Of a DNA stretch of 47,948 bases, positions 5,900 through 31,634 are shown in pieces (within the stretch, counting starts at the first letter, position 1; each line of letters begins with the position of its first letter). The translations under genes and the position numbers were made by a program. Below the pieces are notes generated by a model. That model saw nothing but the letters and a program-made list of their open reading frames with translations, searched no databases and was not told where the DNA came from. This stretch comes from a virus: IMG/VR virus record IMGVR_UViG_3300029990_000012, positions 1 through 47,948 of that record; one strand, 5' to 3'.

Positions 5900-6732
5900 T
5901 GCTTATAGTAGTACAACTTAGTAAGTGCCTTAACCATAGGACTACGTTGTACATCATCGAAAGTGAAGTGCGTGATTGCTACGTTATTGATAAACTCGTA
6001 GAGGTCATTTTCATCTAAGTAGTCTGGAGGAGTGTTCTTACGCACATTATCCAACATATTGAGGGTAGCCACCAATCCAGAAGTCCCACGCATGTCGTGC
6101 TGCGTTTGATCCCCTGTGAAGATCATCTGGCAATTCTCCCCAATACGGGTAAGCATCATCTCAAACTCATCTTCTGTAAAGTTCTGAGACTCTTCCGTTA
6201 TGACTACGCAATCTTGAAAACTCATGCCACGCATGTGCTCAGCAGCGCACAACTCGATAATCTTCTTACTCAGACAGTAACCAGCAAACCCCTTACCAAG
6301 AAAACTCTCGAAATGATGAATGGTTTGTAGGAACCAAGGAAGCAACTTAGAATGCAAATCGCCCGGAATTAACCCGTTTGTCTTGCCACAAGACACAGCG
6401 GGGCGTACAAGATACACCTTATCAATCTTCTTTGATTTAATCAGATTACTGGCATGGTATGCTGCCAACATTGATTTTCCTGTTCCCGCAACTCCAACTA
6501 GATAATTAATTTGCTTCCCGCTTTTTAGTGCAGTGAGTGCTTTTCTCTGATTCTCCCCTCTCGGGTCAATATTAAGACCGTTAGAAGCCTTTGGAATAAT
6601 ATCCTCGATAAATTTCTCCTTAATAACAGGGGGCAGTTCCTGCTTAACTTTTACTGCCCGAGTCTTCTTACGGCTTCGCCGTGGCTTGCTACTCCCCAAC
6701 ATTTCACTATCCAAATCATTCTCATAAGCCAT
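5896..6732 (-). CDS. phoH: PhoH-family ATPase
   Basis: A 278-residue protein with a basic N-terminal tail (residues 15-30 rich in Arg/Lys), then the PhoH P-loop ATPase: Walker A GVAGTGKS at 80-87, VYLVRPAVSCGK, and a Walker-B-like stretch VVITEESQN followed by MIFTGDQTQHD, all diagnostic of the family. PhoH proteins are common in phages; an RNA-helicase/nucleotide-stress role has been proposed but the function remains unsettled. The ATG at 6732 is chosen because GGAGG lies upstream. Confidence 0.92.
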   Translation of the reverse strand: MAYENDLDSEMLGSSKPRRSRKKTRAVKVKQELPPVIKEKFIEDIIPKASNGLNIDPRGENQRKALTALKSGKQINYLVGVAGTGKSMLAAYHASNLIKSKKIDKVYLVRPAVSCGKTNGLIPGDLHSKLLPWFLQTIHHFESFLGKGFAGYCLSKKIIELCAAEHMRGMSFQDCVVITEESQNFTEDEFEMMLTRIGENCQMIFTGDQTQHDMRGTSGLVATLNMLDNVRKNTPPDYLDENDLYEFINNVAITHFTFDDVQRSPMVKALTKLYYYKQ

Positions 6733-6772
6733 CAGCAATTTCCTCCATATAATTACAGGAATACTACACACT

Positions 6773-6790
6773 AAAAGCCGCTAACGCGGC
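6773..6790 (-). terminator. Micro-hairpin acting as possible terminator
   Basis: GCCGC-GTTA-GCGGC (read on the minus strand) followed by TTTTAG, between the 107-residue gene and phoH. The stem is only five base pairs. It has the same style as the island hairpins, so they may sometimes serve as weak terminators or RNA end-protectors. Confidence 0.45.
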
Positions 6791-6799
6791 GTCGTACAA

Positions 6800-7123
6800 T
6801 TAGTCCTTCGTAATCGTTTGCAACGCTTCAGCAGGAAGCTTGCTACGCAAAGCCTCTTTAGCCTTATTGCTCTTAGTGTAGACACGCTTAGGAGTAACCC
6901 CTTGTTGTTCCTGAGTAGTGTCTTCAACAACGACAGTGGAAACTTCATCATCAAGGAGTAGCATGGTTGCCGTGAACAAACCTAGTTGCCATTGAGGGCA
7001 ATGCTTATTTGATACATCCAAAATATATCCTTGCGAAGCAAGTTCTACAATTTCCTGCGTATAAGTAATAAAACCATTGCAGACAACTTGCTTTAAGTCT
7101 TTAATTTTCAATTCTTCAGCCAT
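6800..7123 (-). CDS. Hypothetical protein, 107 aa
   Basis: An alpha/beta N-terminus is followed by a Thr/Val/Glu-rich linker (VSTVVVEDTTQEQQG) and a basic C-terminal segment with KRVYTKSNKAKEALRS. The ATG at 7123 has GGAGGAG upstream and immediately follows the stop of the 78-residue gene. A basic tail after an acidic linker could contact nucleic acid, but no family is recognised. Confidence 0.75.
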   Translation of the reverse strand: MAEELKIKDLKQVVCNGFITYTQEIVELASQGYILDVSNKHCPQWQLGLFTATMLLLDDEVSTVVVEDTTQEQQGVTPKRVYTKSNKAKEALRSKLPAEALQTITKD

Positions 7124-7387: not shown

Positions 7388-7468
7388 AGCGGGTTTGCAG
7401 AATCGAACTGCGGCTTGCCAGCACCCCTTCGGATTAGGTATCCGATGCTCTCCATAAGCTAAACCCGC
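7388..7468 (-). tRNA. Atypical tRNA, anticodon CCU by position (Arg?)
   Basis: Cloverleaf on the minus strand: acceptor GCGGGTT/AACCCGC (7 bp), TA, D-arm GCTT-ATGGA-GAGC, anticodon stem TCGGA/TCCGA with loop TACCTAA, 16-base variable region, T-arm CGCAG-TTCGATT-CTGCA (one mismatch), discriminator T, CCA not encoded. Numbered canonically the anticodon is CCU (Arg AGG codon), but position 33 is A rather than the near-universal U. The long variable region resembles class II tRNAs, whereas arginine tRNAs are class I. It may be a decayed or specialised tRNA. Confidence 0.7.
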
Positions 7469-7474
7469 ATTGTT

Positions 7475-7549
7475 TGGTGGTCCGCCACGGTTACGATCCG
7501 TGCCCTACGACTTATGAGGTCGTTGTTCTCACCAGTGAACTATCAGACC
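7475..7549 (-). tRNA. tRNA-Met (CAU), or tRNA-Ile2 if lysidine-modified
   Basis: Acceptor GGTCTG/CGGACC with a mismatch at 7-66, D-arm GTTC-ACTGGTGA-GAAC, anticodon stem ACGAC/GTCGT with loop CTCATAA (anticodon CAU, U33 present), T-arm CACGG-ATCGTAA-CCGTG, discriminator A and an encoded CCA. The T-loop begins A rather than T. A promoter with perfect consensus boxes lies just upstream (7561-7589). Confidence 0.88.
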
Positions 7550-17297: not shown

Positions 17298-17817
17298 GAC
17301 AATGCTAATTGTTGCTGCTGTAACATGTTGCGCGGTAGCGCTTACAACAGGAACATTGACATATAAATATACAAGCCAACATTATGAATTGCAAATTAGC
17401 AATGAACATCTTAAACAGCAAACAGAGTTGGCTAATTTGAATGCTAAAGTTGTTATTAAGGAGAGAGATAATGCTAATATTAAAACAAAACTTGACAATT
17501 TGGCTATTGAATATGGCAAAGAAGTCGAAAAACTTAATGCTAGTCTTGCTAAGTACAAGTTGTCTAATGGTGGCTTGCTCATCAAGTCCACTCGTTGTGA
17601 AGCCAATGCAAGAGTTGCCAATCCAACCCCCGTCAGCAATTCTACAGGCACCTCCACAACTCCCGGAGGGTTTTGCGAGTTACAGTCAAGCCTTGGAGAG
17701 TTACTTACTAAAACCTTCAACGACGCAGACTCAATGAGAGGTAACTTGCTAATTTGCCAAGAATATGCTGAGGCTATTGACAAACAGCGTAAAGAGATAT
17801 ATAATAGTAAAGATTAA
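17287..17817 (+). CDS. Rz-like inner-membrane spanin subunit
   Basis: A 176-residue protein with an N-terminal transmembrane segment (MLIVAAVTCCAVALTTGTLT) and a long periplasmic helical, coiled-coil region (residues ~35-95). It would pair with Rz1 to span the periplasm and fuse inner and outer membranes at the end of lysis. Its start overlaps the endolysin stop by 11 bases. The Rz1 gene lies wholly within it in another frame. A consensus promoter for the next gene is embedded in its 3' end. Confidence 0.85.
   Translation: MEIRTMLIVAAVTCCAVALTTGTLTYKYTSQHYELQISNEHLKQQTELANLNAKVVIKERDNANIKTKLDNLAIEYGKEVEKLNASLAKYKLSNGGLLIKSTRCEANARVANPTPVSNSTGTSTTPGGFCELQSSLGELLTKTFNDADSMRGNLLICQEYAEAIDKQRKEIYNSKD
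17513..17737 (+). CDS. Rz1-like outer-membrane lipoprotein spanin, nested in Rz
   Basis: The +1 frame inside Rz encodes MAKKSKNLMLVLLSTSCLMV followed by AC: a positive start, a hydrophobic core and a lipobox (LMVAC). After the lipidated Cys the protein is proline-rich (MQELPIQPPSAILQAPPQLP), typical of Rz1. The 17513 start gives the best signal peptide. A start at 17471 has a better Shine-Dalgarno sequence (AAGGAG seven bases upstream) but adds a 14-residue hydrophobic extension. Confidence 0.85.
   Translation: MAKKSKNLMLVLLSTSCLMVACSSSPLVVKPMQELPIQPPSAILQAPPQLPEGFASYSQALESYLLKPSTTQTQ
17777..17805 (+). promoter_or_regulatory. Perfect consensus promoter of the 17909 nuclease
   Basis: TTGACA, 17 bases, TATAAT, all twelve box positions matching, inside the last codons of Rz. 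Its transcript would begin near 17812 and carry the structured leader before the nuclease. Confidence 0.85.
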
Positions 17818-17908: not shown

Positions 17909-19261
17909 ATGGGTAAGAGGGTTAGAGTAACGACAGAGATTTTCATTGAACGGTCTAAGGCAGTACATGGCGACAGATACGATTACAGCAAAGTTGAATT
18001 TACAAGGTGCAGAGACAAGGTATTGATTATCTGCCATGAGCATGGAGAGTTTTGGCAGACACCAGCGGCTCATATGGTTGGGCAAGGATGCTTCTTCTGC
18101 GCAGTCGCAGAAAATGCTAAGCAGAAAACAAAATCTACACAAGAATTCATAGAAAAGTCAAATGTAAAGCATAACAATAAGTATGATTACTCCCTTGTTG
18201 ACTACAAGCACAGTAAGCAGAAAGTCAAGATAATCTGCCCTAAGCACGGGGTGTTTGAACAAAAACCTAATTCCCACTTAGACGGAAGAGGTTGTGTTAA
18301 GTGTAAAGAAGAATTTATTGCAGACTTAAAGAGGATGACAACATCGCGGTTTATAGATAAAGCGAGGAGTGTCCACGGCGATACTTATAATTATGACTTA
18401 GTAAATTATTATCAGACAGAAGTCCCTGTTACAATAGTTTGTAATAAACACGGGGAGTTCGAACAATCCCCTCACTCACACCTTTCTGGGAACGGGTGTA
18501 TGCTATGTAGGAACGAGAACATAGGTATCCGTTGTAGGCACAACACGGAGTTGTTTATAAGCAAGGCAAGGAGCCTACATGGAGACTTGTTTGACTATTC
18601 ACTAGTAGATTATAAAACATCAAAAGACAAGGTTGATATTAAGTGTTTTAAACATGGATTGTTCCAGCAATCTCCTAATGCACACTTAGCTGGACACACC
18701 TGCCCCACTTGTTGTGATGAAAACTTAACTTATTTACTAAGAAGCAGCAAAGAAGAGTTTGTTGAAAAAGCAGTAAAATTACACGGCGAGAAGTATGATT
18801 ATTCTGAGGTTGAATACCATACAAGCAATGTAAAAGTTGCTATAAAGTGTAAAGAACACGGAGTATTTCTTCAAAGACCTGTGTCCCACCTAATAGGACA
18901 AGGTTGTCCATCTTGTGCAAAAATAGGGTTTGACCCATTGAAAGAAGGATTCGTATATCTTCTAGATTCTGATGATATTTTCAAAGTCGGCATAACAACA
19001 AAGCCAATAAAAGAAAGAATATCAAAGATTAGTAGGACGACAAACATAAAATTCAAAAGCATCTTTACGAGGAGAATGGAAGGCGTTGTGGCACAGGAGG
19101 TTGAAAGAAGAATGTTAAGATGGCTCAAGGAGCAGCACCGGCAACCAAAAGAAAAATTTGATGGTTATACTGAGTGCTTTTACAAGCATAGTGACACCAC
19201 AATTCCAAACATTGTTGATAAGATAATTGAATTTGAAAAAGAGGTCTTTAATGGAAACTGA
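17909..19261 (+). CDS. GIY-YIG homing-type endonuclease with five DUF723 repeats
   Basis: A 450-residue protein. Five units at residues 9-64, 77-132, 145-200, 213-268 and 281-336 each follow F-x-x-(K/R)-(A/S)-x3-H-x4-(Y/F)-(D/N)-Y ... C-x2-HG-x-F-x-Q-x-P-x2-H ... C-x2-C. Spacing is exactly 68 residues: Cys42, 110, 178, 246 and 314 line up, as do the C-x2-C pairs at 61, 129, 197, 265 and 333. Residues 348-440 form the GIY-YIG/T5orf172-like nuclease (FVYLLDSDDIFKVGITTKP). The repeats probably read DNA as a modular zinc array. It has its own promoter and leader and overlaps terS by 11 bases. Confidence 0.88.
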   Translation: MGKRVRVTTEIFIERSKAVHGDRYDYSKVEFTRCRDKVLIICHEHGEFWQTPAAHMVGQGCFFCAVAENAKQKTKSTQEFIEKSNVKHNNKYDYSLVDYKHSKQKVKIICPKHGVFEQKPNSHLDGRGCVKCKEEFIADLKRMTTSRFIDKARSVHGDTYNYDLVNYYQTEVPVTIVCNKHGEFEQSPHSHLSGNGCMLCRNENIGIRCRHNTELFISKARSLHGDLFDYSLVDYKTSKDKVDIKCFKHGLFQQSPNAHLAGHTCPTCCDENLTYLLRSSKEEFVEKAVKLHGEKYDYSEVEYHTSNVKVAIKCKEHGVFLQRPVSHLIGQGCPSCAKIGFDPLKEGFVYLLDSDDIFKVGITTKPIKERISKISRTTNIKFKSIFTRRMEGVVAQEVERRMLRWLKEQHRQPKEKFDGYTECFYKHSDTTIPNIVDKIIEFEKEVFNGN

Positions 19262-19655
19262 AAAAGAAGATAACCCCGAGAGTATTAAAATCGTTCCAGC
19301 AACGAGTATTAATTTTGATAGAAAAAATGATCTTATAAAAACACTTAAGAAGATTGATAAGTCTGTTGACAAATCAATTGAATTCCTTGAGCAAGTTATG
19401 CTAGATGGGAACAATGAACTAAAAGTTAGAGTAGATTGTGCCAAAACAATCCTTGACAAAAAACTACAGATTAGTGATAGTGTAAATAAGGATAACCTCT
19501 CTCGCCTAATCGCACAGTCTAGATTATTCATGGCCCAACAAGCAGTTAATAATAAGCGTATTAAAGATGTTGGGGGAGAGGACGAAGATGAGTATAGCGT
19601 ACCTCAGTACCTCCCATCCGTCATCCTCGACGCCTCAATGGTAAAGTCTATGTAG
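19251..19655 (+). CDS. terS: Probable small terminase subunit
   Basis: A 134-residue protein, helical and charged, with KNDLIKTLKKIDKSVDKSIE then KVRVDCAKTILDKKLQ, which resembles the central oligomerisation helices of small terminases. There is no obvious N-terminal HTH. The assignment rests mostly on its place before terL (separated by an RNA gene and a nuclease) and on its size. The ATG at 19251 lies inside the end of the nuclease gene with AGAGG upstream. Confidence 0.6.
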   Translation: METEKEDNPESIKIVPATSINFDRKNDLIKTLKKIDKSVDKSIEFLEQVMLDGNNELKVRVDCAKTILDKKLQISDSVNKDNLSRLIAQSRLFMAQQAVNNKRIKDVGGEDEDEYSVPQYLPSVILDASMVKSM

Positions 19656-19677: not shown

Positions 19678-19706
19678 TTGACATTGTAGAAAAGTAATGA
19701 TATAAT
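19678..19706 (+). promoter_or_regulatory. Perfect consensus promoter of the large ncRNA
   Basis: TTGACA, 17 bases ending TGA (extended -10), TATAAT. No gene starts within 900 bases downstream, but a strong terminator follows at 20571-20602. Confidence 0.9.
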
Positions 19707-19712
19707 GGTTGT

Positions 19713-20600
19713 AAATGAAGTAAGAAACATGCAATCGTTATTGGGAGCAATCTCTATGTTCAGGTGTCTCTTCTACGAAGATAGTCCTGTCGATTGTTGT
19801 CTAAGCGTTTCTCCTTCGCTAAGGCACGTAATGTTCTCCGCGTCAGCGAGAACGATTGTCCAAGTCATAACTCGGGACATAAACAATAAGAGTATGCGTA
19901 GGTAGTCGACGTAATAAACTATCGAGGCGTGTGACCAACACAGCGTAATGGTGTTCCCGCATACGGTAAGCGGGAAGAATAACAGAAGCGTTGAGACATA
20001 TTCTTGTTATCTCAAGGCTGTTATATCGCGGAGTCATTCTCCGAAAGCTTATAACTTGGTTATCTCCCTCGTGTACATGACGGAATAACTCAAGTGGAAT
20101 TGAATATAAGCAAGACTGTACTTCCTTGGGACAGTCGCCTTCTCACGAAGGCTCTAACACATGCTAATTATTCAAGGGCGTAGCCGTAATCTGACGGTTC
20201 AATAGTTAGCAGTTGTTAGGCGGATGTGTAGTGATCCTACACGGCGAAGATTGTAAGCCAAGAGGGAAAGGCGCATGTAGGATGCTATCCGTAATGTAGC
20301 CCCTCGGTAGTCACTGTCTAATCTACTTGATTCGCAATCAGGTAATACGGACTACAGCAGGAATTAATCTCCTGTCACCTATTAATTTGCCATGAAAACA
20401 TTGATAGTGATGTGCTAGTTTTGTACACTAGATAAGACGCTGCAAGTTCGTCTCGTGGCTCCATGAGTGCAATAGTTTAGCAAAGTAAGATTAAACGTAG
20501 TGTGAGTACGTTGTTTCGTAATAATATAAACTCATAAAACAAGAAGCTCCGTGAGGAGACATTTCATTAGGGCTTCTTCCTTGCGGAAGAAGCCTTTCTT
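19713..20600 (+). ncRNA. Large structured non-coding RNA (about 890 nt), candidate ornate phage RNA
   Basis: Between terS and a small gene lies a stretch with no credible reading frame, bounded by a perfect promoter and a strong terminator. Local helices include GTTCT/AGAAC with CGC/GCG (19833-19853), CCCGC/GCGGG (19956-19974), TTGAGA/TCTCAA (about 19991-20015), CGGAG/CTCCG, GACTGT/ACAGTC, GCCTTC/GAAGGC, GCTAA-TATT/AATA-TTAGC enclosing CCGT/ACGG, GTGTAG/CTACAC, GTAGTC/GACTAC enclosing CTTGATT/AATCAGG, CAGGA/TCCTG, CTAGT/ACTAG, AGACG/CGTCT, ACGTA/TACGT and CTCC-GTGA-GGAG. Size and phage setting recall the GOLLD and ROOL classes; membership is untested. Confidence 0.82.
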
Positions 20601-20602
20601 TA
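20571..20602 (+). terminator. Terminator of the large ncRNA
   Basis: A perfect 10-bp stem GGCTTCTTCC / GGAAGAAGCC with loop TTGC, followed by TTTCTTTATT. It ends the RNA that starts near 19713. Confidence 0.92.
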
Positions 20603-20617
20603 TTGTAGGAACATATA

Positions 20618-20833
20618 ATGAATATTCGTATTGTATCTGAGAACGGCAAGCATAAGTTATATTACGTAGAGTATAACGAGGATGGTTACGTGGAGAATAT
20701 AAAAGACGAGGTCACCTTCGTCAGTAAAGAGTTTTCTGTATTTAGACAGATTCTAGCCGCAGCATCTGCTGCAATTCTGCTACCTGTCATAATGGTGAAT
20801 TCCTGCAACAAAAAAATGCTAATGAAACAATAA
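20618..20833 (+). CDS. Small membrane-associated hypothetical protein, 71 aa
   Basis: A polar, beta-rich N-terminus (MNIRIVSENGKHKLYYVEYN) is followed by one hydrophobic helix (ILAAASAAILLPVIMV) and a short charged end. AGGAA precedes the ATG, which lies 16 bases after the ncRNA terminator run. It leads into the nuclease at 20836. No family recognised. Confidence 0.6.
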   Translation: MNIRIVSENGKHKLYYVEYNEDGYVENIKDEVTFVSKEFSVFRQILAAASAAILLPVIMVNSCNKKMLMKQ

Positions 20834-20835
20834 TA

Positions 20836-21951
20836 ATGCAGACTAAGATTAACGATGTGAAAATAGAAGTAGGGGGCGTGTACAAAACATGCGTTGATGG
20901 GGACATAATTGTATTGTCAAAGAGCGGTGAGTTTTCTAACATCATGTTTTTGGAAACATCCAATGAGTACTGTACGCAGACAAATAAAATAAAGTATGGG
21001 AATATAAAAGACAAAAATAAAGACAGAACCCCACACTTTATAAAAGATTGCGTGGATGTTCACGGTGAAAAGTACTCGTATGAAAAAACAGTATTTACTA
21101 TTCAATCAAACAACATAATTGTAACTTGTCCTATTCACGGTGACTTCGAGATTCGAGCGAGTTGCCACAAGCAGGGCCAAGGCTGCGCGGCTTGTGCTCG
21201 TGATATGCATTCTTCGAAAATCACTAAAACAACGGCAGATTTCATCGCCGCGTCTAAAGTTAAGTTCGGGGACAAGTTTGTTTATACAAAAACAGAATAT
21301 CAAGGGACGGATATACCTGTTATTTTAACATGCCCTGCTCATGGGGACATTGAAATAACACCAGCATCCCACAACAGGTGCATGACTGGCTGTTTGTTAT
21401 GCAGTTCCGATACGATGAGTGCTCGTAGGTCTATGGAGTTTAGTGACTTTGTAATGTTGTCAAAAGAGAGGTATGGTGACGTATACTCTTATGATCCTTC
21501 AACATATATAAATATGTCTAGCAAAGCATATGTTACCTGTAAAAGACACGGTGCATGGGGAGTAATAGCTAATAGCCACGTTCATAGGACTTCTGGTTGT
21601 CCACAATGCTTGGAGGAGAGGCGTGGGCATAAAAGAAATCGAAAATGGATACTATATCTATTAGAGTCTGACGGGTTGTTTAAGGTTGGAGTATCCAGCA
21701 GGGAAAGTGCTATTGGAAGGGTAAGAGAAATAAACTCATCAGCATATCCTTTGGTATTCAAGCACGTAATGTCGTTCCAGATGCTAAGGAATGACTGCCT
21801 TGATTTAGAGGGTAAATTACTTGCTAAATTTAGAGCGCTTGGGTGTAAAAATCCAGAGATGAAGTTTGGTGGGTACACTGAGACATTTAGTGGCCTTCCA
21901 TTGAATTATGTTATTAAGATATTCGAGGACACTGTAAGGAAAGAACAATAA
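20836..21951 (+). CDS. GIY-YIG homing-type endonuclease with three DUF723 repeats
   Basis: A 371-residue protein. Residues 10-55 form an SH3-like N-terminal unit like those of the 722-2185 protein. Three zinc units at about 66-120, 133-189 and 202-258 repeat every 68-69 residues (Cys98, 166, 235). Residues 271-365 are the GIY-YIG-type nuclease (ILYLLESDGLFKVGVSS). No ribosome binding site is obvious; translation may be coupled to the upstream small gene three bases away. Its TAA overlaps the ATG of terL (TAATG), so it sits immediately upstream of a conserved gene, the usual place of a free-standing homing gene. Confidence 0.85.
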   Translation: MQTKINDVKIEVGGVYKTCVDGDIIVLSKSGEFSNIMFLETSNEYCTQTNKIKYGNIKDKNKDRTPHFIKDCVDVHGEKYSYEKTVFTIQSNNIIVTCPIHGDFEIRASCHKQGQGCAACARDMHSSKITKTTADFIAASKVKFGDKFVYTKTEYQGTDIPVILTCPAHGDIEITPASHNRCMTGCLLCSSDTMSARRSMEFSDFVMLSKERYGDVYSYDPSTYINMSSKAYVTCKRHGAWGVIANSHVHRTSGCPQCLEERRGHKRNRKWILYLLESDGLFKVGVSSRESAIGRVREINSSAYPLVFKHVMSFQMLRNDCLDLEGKLLAKFRALGCKNPEMKFGGYTETFSGLPLNYVIKIFEDTVRKEQ

Positions 21952-23363
21952 TGGCTAAAAAGAAACTTCCTGTATATGGCCCTGCCTCTGAGACACAAAG
22001 ACAATTCTTAACGCATGAAGCACAGTTTGTAATATACGGCGGAGGAGCTGGATCAGGGAAGTCTCACTTAGCTTTGATGTATTCCCTAGCCTTCAAGGAT
22101 GATCCAGAGTTCCGTGCTGTCTACATCAGGCAATCTTCCGTGCAACTTTCACAAGCAGGTGGTTTATGGATGGAAATGCAATCCATGTATAAGCCATTCA
22201 ATCCAGCATTCCGACAAGATCGCATGTCTGCAACATTTCCTACTGGTGCATTCGTACAGTGTAAAACTCTTGGTGCTGACAGAGAAATTACTAACTTCGA
22301 TGGTGGACAATATAGCCTTGTAGTATTTGATGAGTGCCAATGGCATTCCCAAGAGCAGGTTATGTATTTGCTCTCTCGTATTCGTTCTAAGGCTAAAGGC
22401 CCACACAAACTCATAGCAACTTGCAATCCGCACCCCGATTCCTTCTTACTGAAATTTGTGACTTGGTATCTGGATCAAGAGACAGGTATTCCAATCCACG
22501 AAAGGTCTGGTGTAACTAGGTATTTCTCGCAGTACCGTGGGGATTTGGTATTTGCTGATACAGCAGAAGAAATGCTTGAGAAGTATCCAAATACAACACC
22601 AATGACCTACACATTCGTTGCTGCTAATATTTATAGCAATCCTGTATTAATGCAACGTGATCCAGAATATGTTCGTCGTCTTGAGAATCTTAAACGTGCT
22701 GAACGTGATCGTCTGCTTTTAGGATCATGGTTTGCTAGAGAAACAGCAAGCAAGTATTGGCAACGTGAATGGGTAGAACTTGTAGACTTTCCTCCTGATG
22801 ACGCTGTGCGTCGTGTTAGAGCATGGGACTTAGCTGCAACACTTCCGAGTGAGAGCAACAAAGACCCGGATTATACTTGCGGTGTGAAAGTATCACGCAA
22901 TAAATTTGGTGTCTATACGGTGGAGGATGCCTATCGCTTCAGAAAGTTATCCGGCGATGTCCTCGATGAAATTGTTAAAACAGCAAGAGATGATGGTGTT
23001 GATGAGGTTCAAGTAATGATTCCTGGGGAAATCGGCGCAGGCCGCTCTTGGTCACAGCACGTTATCCGCGTTCTATCTGAGAATGGTATTCCTGCAAGGC
23101 TCGTCCAAGTGTCGGGGCATAAAGGAAAGATTTCAAGATTTCTTCCATTCTCTAGCATGTCGGAAGTAGGTAATGTTAAGGTTGTTAGAGGTGACTGGAA
23201 TGATTGGTTTTATAATGAGTTAGAATCCTTTGACGGGGGTAGAAAAGGCCATGACGATGCTGTTGACGCATGTGCTGACGCTTTCAGCACACTTGCTAAA
23301 ACATCTGTGTTGCCAATGTTTATTCTCCCCTCCATGACAAAGGAGTCCCCTCTCGTCCATTAA
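21951..23363 (+). CDS. terL: Large terminase subunit
   Basis: A 470-residue packaging motor. The ATPase part has Walker A GGGAGSGKS at 30-38 and Walker B LVVFDECQ with Asp127-Glu128. The nuclease part has RVRAWDLAAT (metal-binding Asp) and a C-terminal GHDDAVDACADAF. It cuts concatemeric phage DNA and pumps it into the prohead through the portal. The ATG overlaps the stop of the preceding nuclease gene. It is unusually far from terS because of the ncRNA and nuclease insertions. Confidence 0.95.
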   Translation: MAKKKLPVYGPASETQRQFLTHEAQFVIYGGGAGSGKSHLALMYSLAFKDDPEFRAVYIRQSSVQLSQAGGLWMEMQSMYKPFNPAFRQDRMSATFPTGAFVQCKTLGADREITNFDGGQYSLVVFDECQWHSQEQVMYLLSRIRSKAKGPHKLIATCNPHPDSFLLKFVTWYLDQETGIPIHERSGVTRYFSQYRGDLVFADTAEEMLEKYPNTTPMTYTFVAANIYSNPVLMQRDPEYVRRLENLKRAERDRLLLGSWFARETASKYWQREWVELVDFPPDDAVRRVRAWDLAATLPSESNKDPDYTCGVKVSRNKFGVYTVEDAYRFRKLSGDVLDEIVKTARDDGVDEVQVMIPGEIGAGRSWSQHVIRVLSENGIPARLVQVSGHKGKISRFLPFSSMSEVGNVKVVRGDWNDWFYNELESFDGGRKGHDDAVDACADAFSTLAKTSVLPMFILPSMTKESPLVH

Positions 23364-31590: not shown

Positions 31591-31634
31591 TTGACATACT
31601 GTTAAAGTTGTGGTATAATTGTTGTATAACAATT
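31591..31634 (+). promoter_or_regulatory. Perfect promoter with operator-like palindrome
   Basis: TTGACA (31591-31596), 17 bases with TGG extension, TATAAT (31614-31619). A palindrome AATTGTT-GTAT-AACAATT (31617-31634) overlaps the -10 and start site. The arms resemble those of the lac operator. It drives the HNH gene at 31647 and may be repressor-controlled. Confidence 0.8.

Follow-up and report, generated by a model that had tools for sequence, protein, structure and literature searches.

GOLLD and ROOL, two large ornate RNAs associated with phages, are natural RNA cages, the former a 14-mer and the latter an 8-mer, and to our knowledge nobody can say what purpose these cages serve. ROOL itself forms RNA-only complexes and is encoded near tRNAs. 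Many GOLLD members exceed 800 nt; they are encoded by phages or prophages in the vicinity of tRNA islands, and some enclose a tRNA or pseudo-tRNA (PMC12286853, PMC6582537); in some cases the tRNAs are held in GOLLD linkers, and ROOL lies near phage tRNA islands as well (PMC12286853). Long ncRNAs outside any described class are also made by virulent phages. In the consulted sections of the respective reports, ICP1 encodes an unclassified ncRNA of ∼800 nt that is its most abundant transcript (PMC7567579), phage K carries the unclassified lnc001 and lnc002 beside tRNA genes (PMC9241854), and covariation is reported for none of them. The virulent Pseudomonas phage PAK_P3 produces two late, abundant ncRNAs, sRNA1 and sRNA2, the second of which is located between tRNA genes (PMC4933390).

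The window studied here, a virus record of 47,948 nucleotides taken as a whole, belongs to a myovirus-like phage whose large terminase subunit is ∼43% identical to those of Pseudomonas phages KPP10 and PS24. A sequence-only reading had proposed that it contains a stand-alone large RNA gene reminiscent of GOLLD and ROOL, and the size, phage setting and covarying structure of the element bear this out. With terL and portal as baits, two homologous RNAs were found in the IMG/VR contigs L002 (6228-7023, of which 6234-7023, or 790 nt, is the RNA part) and L074 (1206-1975, with an RNA part of 764 nt at 1212-1975), both from metagenome 3300020045. The three homologous RNAs measure 764-891 nt, and each comes with a promoter, a terminator and the same downstream ORF. 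L002 and the window are close at the protein level (terL 93%, portal 83-84%, capsid within 84-93% identity), and the L074 portal is 83% identical to that of the window. The RNA of L002 is only ∼60% identical to that of the window and includes fully shared islands such as CCCTCGTGTACATGACGGAATAACT. The locus is organized as follows.

19678..19706, + strand: sigma-70 promoter TTGACA-17-TATAAT with TG before the -10 element, exact (12 of 12 matches)
19713..20603, + strand: structured non-coding RNA gene of ∼890 nt, from folding, alignment and covariation with homologues
20569..20603, + strand: intrinsic terminator of 12 pairs (20569-20596), then the T-run TCTTTATT
20618..20833, + strand: 71-aa ORF (MNIRIVS...), 3′ of the RNA in all three phages
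20836..21951, + strand: free-standing homing endonuclease, replaced in L002 by an unrelated HNH type
21951..23363, + strand: terminase large subunit (terL)

The perfect promoter and the terminator with T-run noted from the sequence alone are thus both real, although the promoter is not unique in this phage, where further perfect TTGACA-17-TATAAT copies are found at 7589-7561 (- strand), 17777-17805 (+) and 31591-31619 (+). Directly downstream of the first of these copies lie tRNA-Met and tRNA-Arg genes (7388-7549). Similar promoters precede the L002 and L074 homologues in the alignment. The RNA start was placed ∼7 nt past the -10 element and its end in the T-run. From a consensus sigma-70 promoter of this kind, strong transcription by the host RNA polymerase is expected, ending at the 3′ terminator. 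The ICP1 and phage K ncRNAs, as described in the consulted sections, may illustrate by analogy the kind of expression expected here.

The proposed position between terS and terL held on one side only. On the terL side it is correct, with the 71-aa ORF and the homing endonuclease in between; on the other side, family searches found no terS match for the gene just upstream of the RNA (19254-19655), and L074 carries a different ORF there. Homing endonuclease genes are found at 17909-19261 and 20836-21951 in the window, at 7271-8008 in L002 and at 2225-3334 in L074. Between the RNA module and terL there is a homing endonuclease in every case, but its type differs, which makes this gap an insertion hot spot. 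The terL gene itself is uninterrupted in the window; it is interrupted near the Walker A codons in L002 (8100-8345), L074 (3437-3660) and L004 (about 337-611). These inserts of ∼220 nt or more look like group I introns by eye, a search of L002 at the Rfam gathering threshold gave no match, and an apparent intein-like stretch adjoins the insert of L004.

Wider searches brought no further member to light. Comparison of the RNA with phages and plasmids by blastn returned only tRNA-like stretches and chance matches, scans of viral contigs for patterns of conserved boxes recovered the known homologues only, and one pattern scan of genome contigs gave no match. Model R1, applied to 84 sources and to 30 records in full, found the three known members alone, and it had no match in the ICP1 genome. 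Candidate homologues in L071, L072 and L151-L153 were rejected as chance matches in coding sequence or tRNA 3′ ends, and the matches of model R2 elsewhere look like similar terminator stems. When used as bait, the 71-aa ORF, for which family searches gave no convincing match, led back to L002 and L074 and nowhere else in the collections searched.

The absence of any credible protein within the stretch was confirmed. The longest frame opening with ATG, GTG or TTG on the + strand has 66 aa and lies outside the transcript, since its ATG falls within the -10 element; no reading frame is conserved in the homologues, where the shared stretches (at most 39 aa, all six frames considered) merely track conserved DNA. 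Folding energy was less telling. The full RNA has a z-score of -4.7 and its reverse complement -5.4, and three pieces of 300 nt gave -2.1, -3.4 and -2.7, values also reached by a number of windows within the coding sequence of this phage. Thermodynamic stability by itself is therefore weak evidence for structure and not exceptional in this phage genome. As the energy is only mildly above chance, the proof of structure had to come from relatives, in which the following elements could be aligned.

19803..19821, + strand: hairpin Pb, varying stem AAGCG/CGCTA, loop with conserved CUCCUU
19833..19853, + strand: hairpin Pc, GTTCTC/GAGAAC (CTTCC/GGAAG in homologues), loop YGCGTYARY
19857..19879, + strand: hairpin Pd, TGTCC/GGACA covarying with TGACG/CGTCA
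19937..19974, + strand: twin hairpins e1 (AACAC/GTGTT to TTGCC/GGCAA) and e2 (CCCGC/GCGGG to TCCGC/GCGGA)
20029..20043, + strand: hairpin Ph, CGGAG-TCATT-CTCCG, from the hand alignment
20047..20111, + strand: Pi, a long compound hairpin; its box CCCTCGTGTACATGACGGAATAAC is the same in L002
20114..20136, + strand: hairpin Pa2, GACTGT/ACAGTC (TTACAC/GTGTAG in homologues), conserved loop end CCTTGG
20154..20219, + strand: nested helices Pc2 (CTAACA/TGTTAG) and Pd2 (GCTAA/TTAGC), from the hand alignment
20226..20242, + strand: hairpin Pe with conserved TGTAGTGAT, from the alignment
20357..20386, + strand: hairpin Pf and its conserved tail CTCCTGTCACCTATTAATT, from the alignment
20542..20577, + strand: element Pz, covarying inner hairpin CTCC/GGAG (CCAT/ATGG in L074), outer stem AGAAGC/GCTTCT

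In all, 21 helices (114 pairs) were aligned by hand around conserved loops in the three sequences, two of which come from one metagenome. Compensatory change on both sides is seen in 57 pairs, 46 are invariant, six change on one side and nine include any mismatch. As many as 330 of the 341 cells are paired, a number that falls to 229-269 when the 5′ arm of one RNA is matched with the 3′ arm of another, so that swapping arms destroys the pairing. The claim of a highly structured RNA is thereby substantiated: it rests on covarying homologues and not on stability. The stems vary around the conserved loops CUCCUU, YGCGTYARY, TCATT and CCUUGG, and the RNA would fold into an array of such hairpins. 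The two outer pairs of Ph, for instance, read C-G and G-C, A-U and C-G, or G-C and A-U across the three sequences. Besides, the Pb loop (window 19808-19816, L002 6297-6305, L074 about 1274-1282, where it reads ACCUCCUU) resembles the anti-Shine-Dalgarno end of 16S rRNA and might make a contact with an mRNA or within the RNA.

With the whole unedited MAFFT alignment, RNAalifold gave a z-score of -7.9 against column shuffles (0 of 30 shuffles as good); by region, the scores were -4.6 for e1-e2, -7.9 for Pa2-Pe and -10.7 for the 3′ end including the terminator. The second of these regions contains Pc2 and Pd2, to which the nested GCTAA/TTAGC helices drawn from the sequence alone correspond. For the blocks Pb-Pd, Ph-Pi and Pe-Pf the signal was weak (z -1.0 to -1.7), to which the misalignment of their stems by MAFFT contributed at least in part. 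Since it relied on the same raw alignment, an automatic stem search was uninformative, finding two covarying stems only, which is the level of the shuffles. For some helices the computed probability of pairing is low in one sequence or in two.

These data bear directly on the view that the locus is decayed sequence, either a dying tRNA array or what remains of a mobile element with homing endonucleases on its flanks. Such a history would fit the broken tRNAs of the window and L074, as well as the endonuclease genes on both sides. It is nevertheless contradicted by the covariation, as compensatory change in half of the pairs points to selection and not to decay, and no intron or HEARO match appears in Rfam. 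We consider decay extremely improbable and the element almost certainly a real, previously uncatalogued large structured RNA of phages.

How this RNA relates to those already described is the next matter. An Rfam search of the stretch returned neither GOLLD nor ROOL, even at E-values up to 10, and the RNA matched no other known family, including riboswitches, leaders, HEARO and group I or II introns. The ROOL model (RF03087) matched neither the window nor any of 50 relatives; as a control, it found the known ROOL of plasmid pMP118 with 130 bits. In addition, no embedded tRNA is described for ROOL in the consulted parts of the literature. Likewise, the GOLLD model (RF02032) gave no match in the window and L002 records at E-values up to 10, nor in the 50 relatives at up to 0.01, the positive control being that of the ROOL model only. 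A divergent GOLLD missed by the Rfam model might be suspected from the length, the phage setting, the tRNA-array site and a tRNA placed between 5′ and 3′ domains, as in some GOLLD RNAs (PMC12286853, PMC6582537). Both the location in a phage at or near tRNA genes (upstream of terL, with arrays in relatives) and the internal tRNA, a trait of some GOLLD members only, are indeed found here. However, the Rfam model spans 416 positions and GOLLD has a universally conserved 3′ region in the literature, whereas the present RNA continues for just ∼140 nt past its cloverleaf in the window and ∼90 nt in L074. Its tRNA is thus near the 3′ end, and the gene is separated from terL, which follows closely downstream, by nothing more than a small ORF and a homing endonuclease. 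A hidden GOLLD therefore seems to us very unlikely, and we hold with high confidence that the family is distinct from both GOLLD and ROOL. The suggestion that it could be GOLLD, ROOL or a new class is accordingly narrowed to its last term. As for PAK_P3, its sRNAs are only ∼100 nt long, and KPP10 and its kin showed no link between them and the present RNA.

The 3′ part of the RNA holds a feature that the sequence-only reading overlooked.

20389..20463, + strand: tRNA-like cloverleaf with anticodon UGU (Thr) and encoded CCA, from the Rfam tRNA model

RF00005 matches the window at 20389-20460 with 35.4 bits (E-value 1.5e-6) for a cut-off of 29, although ARAGORN does not call it. The element keeps a full acceptor stem, U33, the anticodon UGU and an encoded CCA, but it is degenerate in its D loop (UGAUAGUG, which lacks G18-G19) and in its T loop (UGCAAGU versus canonical UUCRANY). 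A tRNA-Thr(UGU) is found within the homologous RNAs too (L002 6817-6892, L074 1807-1881), so that a cloverleaf with the same anticodon is present near the 3′ end in all three, and six of the seven acceptor-stem pairs covary in the hand alignment. The T loops of the embedded tRNA-Thr read AUCGUUG in L002 and AUCGUAC in L074, with A54-U58 instead of the usual U54-A58. L074 has a second tRNA-like element (1715-1796), whose T arm is good but whose anticodon arm is broken. To judge from these sequences, the Thr cloverleaf is retained even where its decoding features have decayed.

Ordinary tRNA arrays occupy the same genomic site in the relatives KPP10, Boevelstad, Y1-MI and L070, and the first member of the L070 array is a tRNA-Thr(UGU). 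The RNA is therefore located at a site of tRNA arrays, where it probably also originated. This setting, together with a consensus host sigma-70 promoter of the kind that the tRNA genes of this phage also have, leaves the suggested late role in packaging or the virion unsupported. It also raises the question of whether the transcript is simply a tRNA-Thr precursor, the remnant of an array reduced to one tRNA, whose long structured flanks are of little importance and are removed by RNase P and RNase E. The arrays of the four relatives, the cloverleaf with encoded CCA in each RNA and the same kind of promoter at the other tRNA genes of the phage all speak for it. However, the flanks of ∼700 nt are unlike spacer RNA, since they carry conserved loops and most of the covarying pairs (two-sided change in 48 of the 90 pairs outside the tRNA and the terminator). 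Moreover, it is the tRNA itself that is the degenerate part in the window, and model R1 matched none of the array spacers in the relatives. We thus regard a mere precursor as unlikely. In a large structured RNA in its own right, tRNA-Thr(UGU) or the tRNA-like cloverleaf would instead be an insert, with a large domain on its 5′ side and a short one on its 3′ side.

The constant neighbour at the 3′ side suggests yet another function, that of a very long leader controlling the 71-aa ORF, the endonuclease and terL by attenuation, with Pz (AGAAGC/GCUUCU) as antiterminator against the overlapping terminator. The small ORF has 71 or 72 aa in the three phages, always starts ∼15-20 nt past the T-run, and its first seven residues, MNIRIVS, are identical in all of them. 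Pz is present in the three RNAs, its inner hairpin covaries in three of four pairs, and in each of them the 5′ arm of the terminator (20569-20596) is also part of the outer stem, an antiterminator-like geometry. Yet this outer stem is invariant, its computed pairing probability is 0.00 in all three RNAs and the terminator is far stronger than Pz. Furthermore, nearly all of the conserved structure is found hundreds of nucleotides further upstream, and the Rfam searches matched no known riboswitch or leader family. Control by attenuation appears improbable to us on balance.

A second feature absent from the earlier description is a palindromic, kissing-type tetraloop.

20069..20080, + strand: tip of Pi, UCGU-GUAC-AUGA, candidate symmetric kissing loop, from the hand alignment

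In the window and L002 the sequence of the tip is UCGU-GUAC-AUGA, and in L074 it is AAUG-UGCA-CGUU; each of the four stem pairs is replaced by a different pair, and the palindromic tetraloop GUAC gives way to UGCA, again a palindrome. Such switching between palindromes has been taken as evidence for symmetric intermolecular loops in OLE and GOLLD in cryo-EM work (PMC12286853), and it is on this resemblance that self-association is proposed here. There are only two loop variants in all, and a palindromic 4-mer is expected by chance at about 1 in 15 positions. By analogy, copies of the RNA may self-associate through the kissing loop at the Pi tip, a proposal for and against which we see equal chances. 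A second palindrome, in the Pf loop, was dropped, as it hinges on whether a closing G-U pair forms.

Taken as a whole, we lean, if only slightly, towards a stand-alone large ncRNA that founds a new family of ornate phage RNAs working like GOLLD and ROOL. Its copies would probably join via at least one symmetric kissing loop, the Pi tip, into an oligomer made of RNA alone, on or inside which the cloverleaf would be held, and which may affect infection. A bolder version of this proposal, tentative and rather doubtful in its entirety, is that the new family self-assembles during infection into a closed RNA-only particle with one tRNA or tRNA-like cloverleaf per subunit, and that it evolved at a myovirus tRNA-array site independently of GOLLD and ROOL.

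If true, a further unrelated family would bear the same signs as GOLLD and ROOL, namely size, location at a phage tRNA-array site, an embedded tRNA and a palindromic kissing-type loop. Such a recurrence would speak for convergent evolution and, in turn, for a real need that phages have in common. Finally, as the shape of the cloverleaf is kept while its decoding features decay, the structural role that an embedded tRNA may play in these RNAs becomes directly testable.
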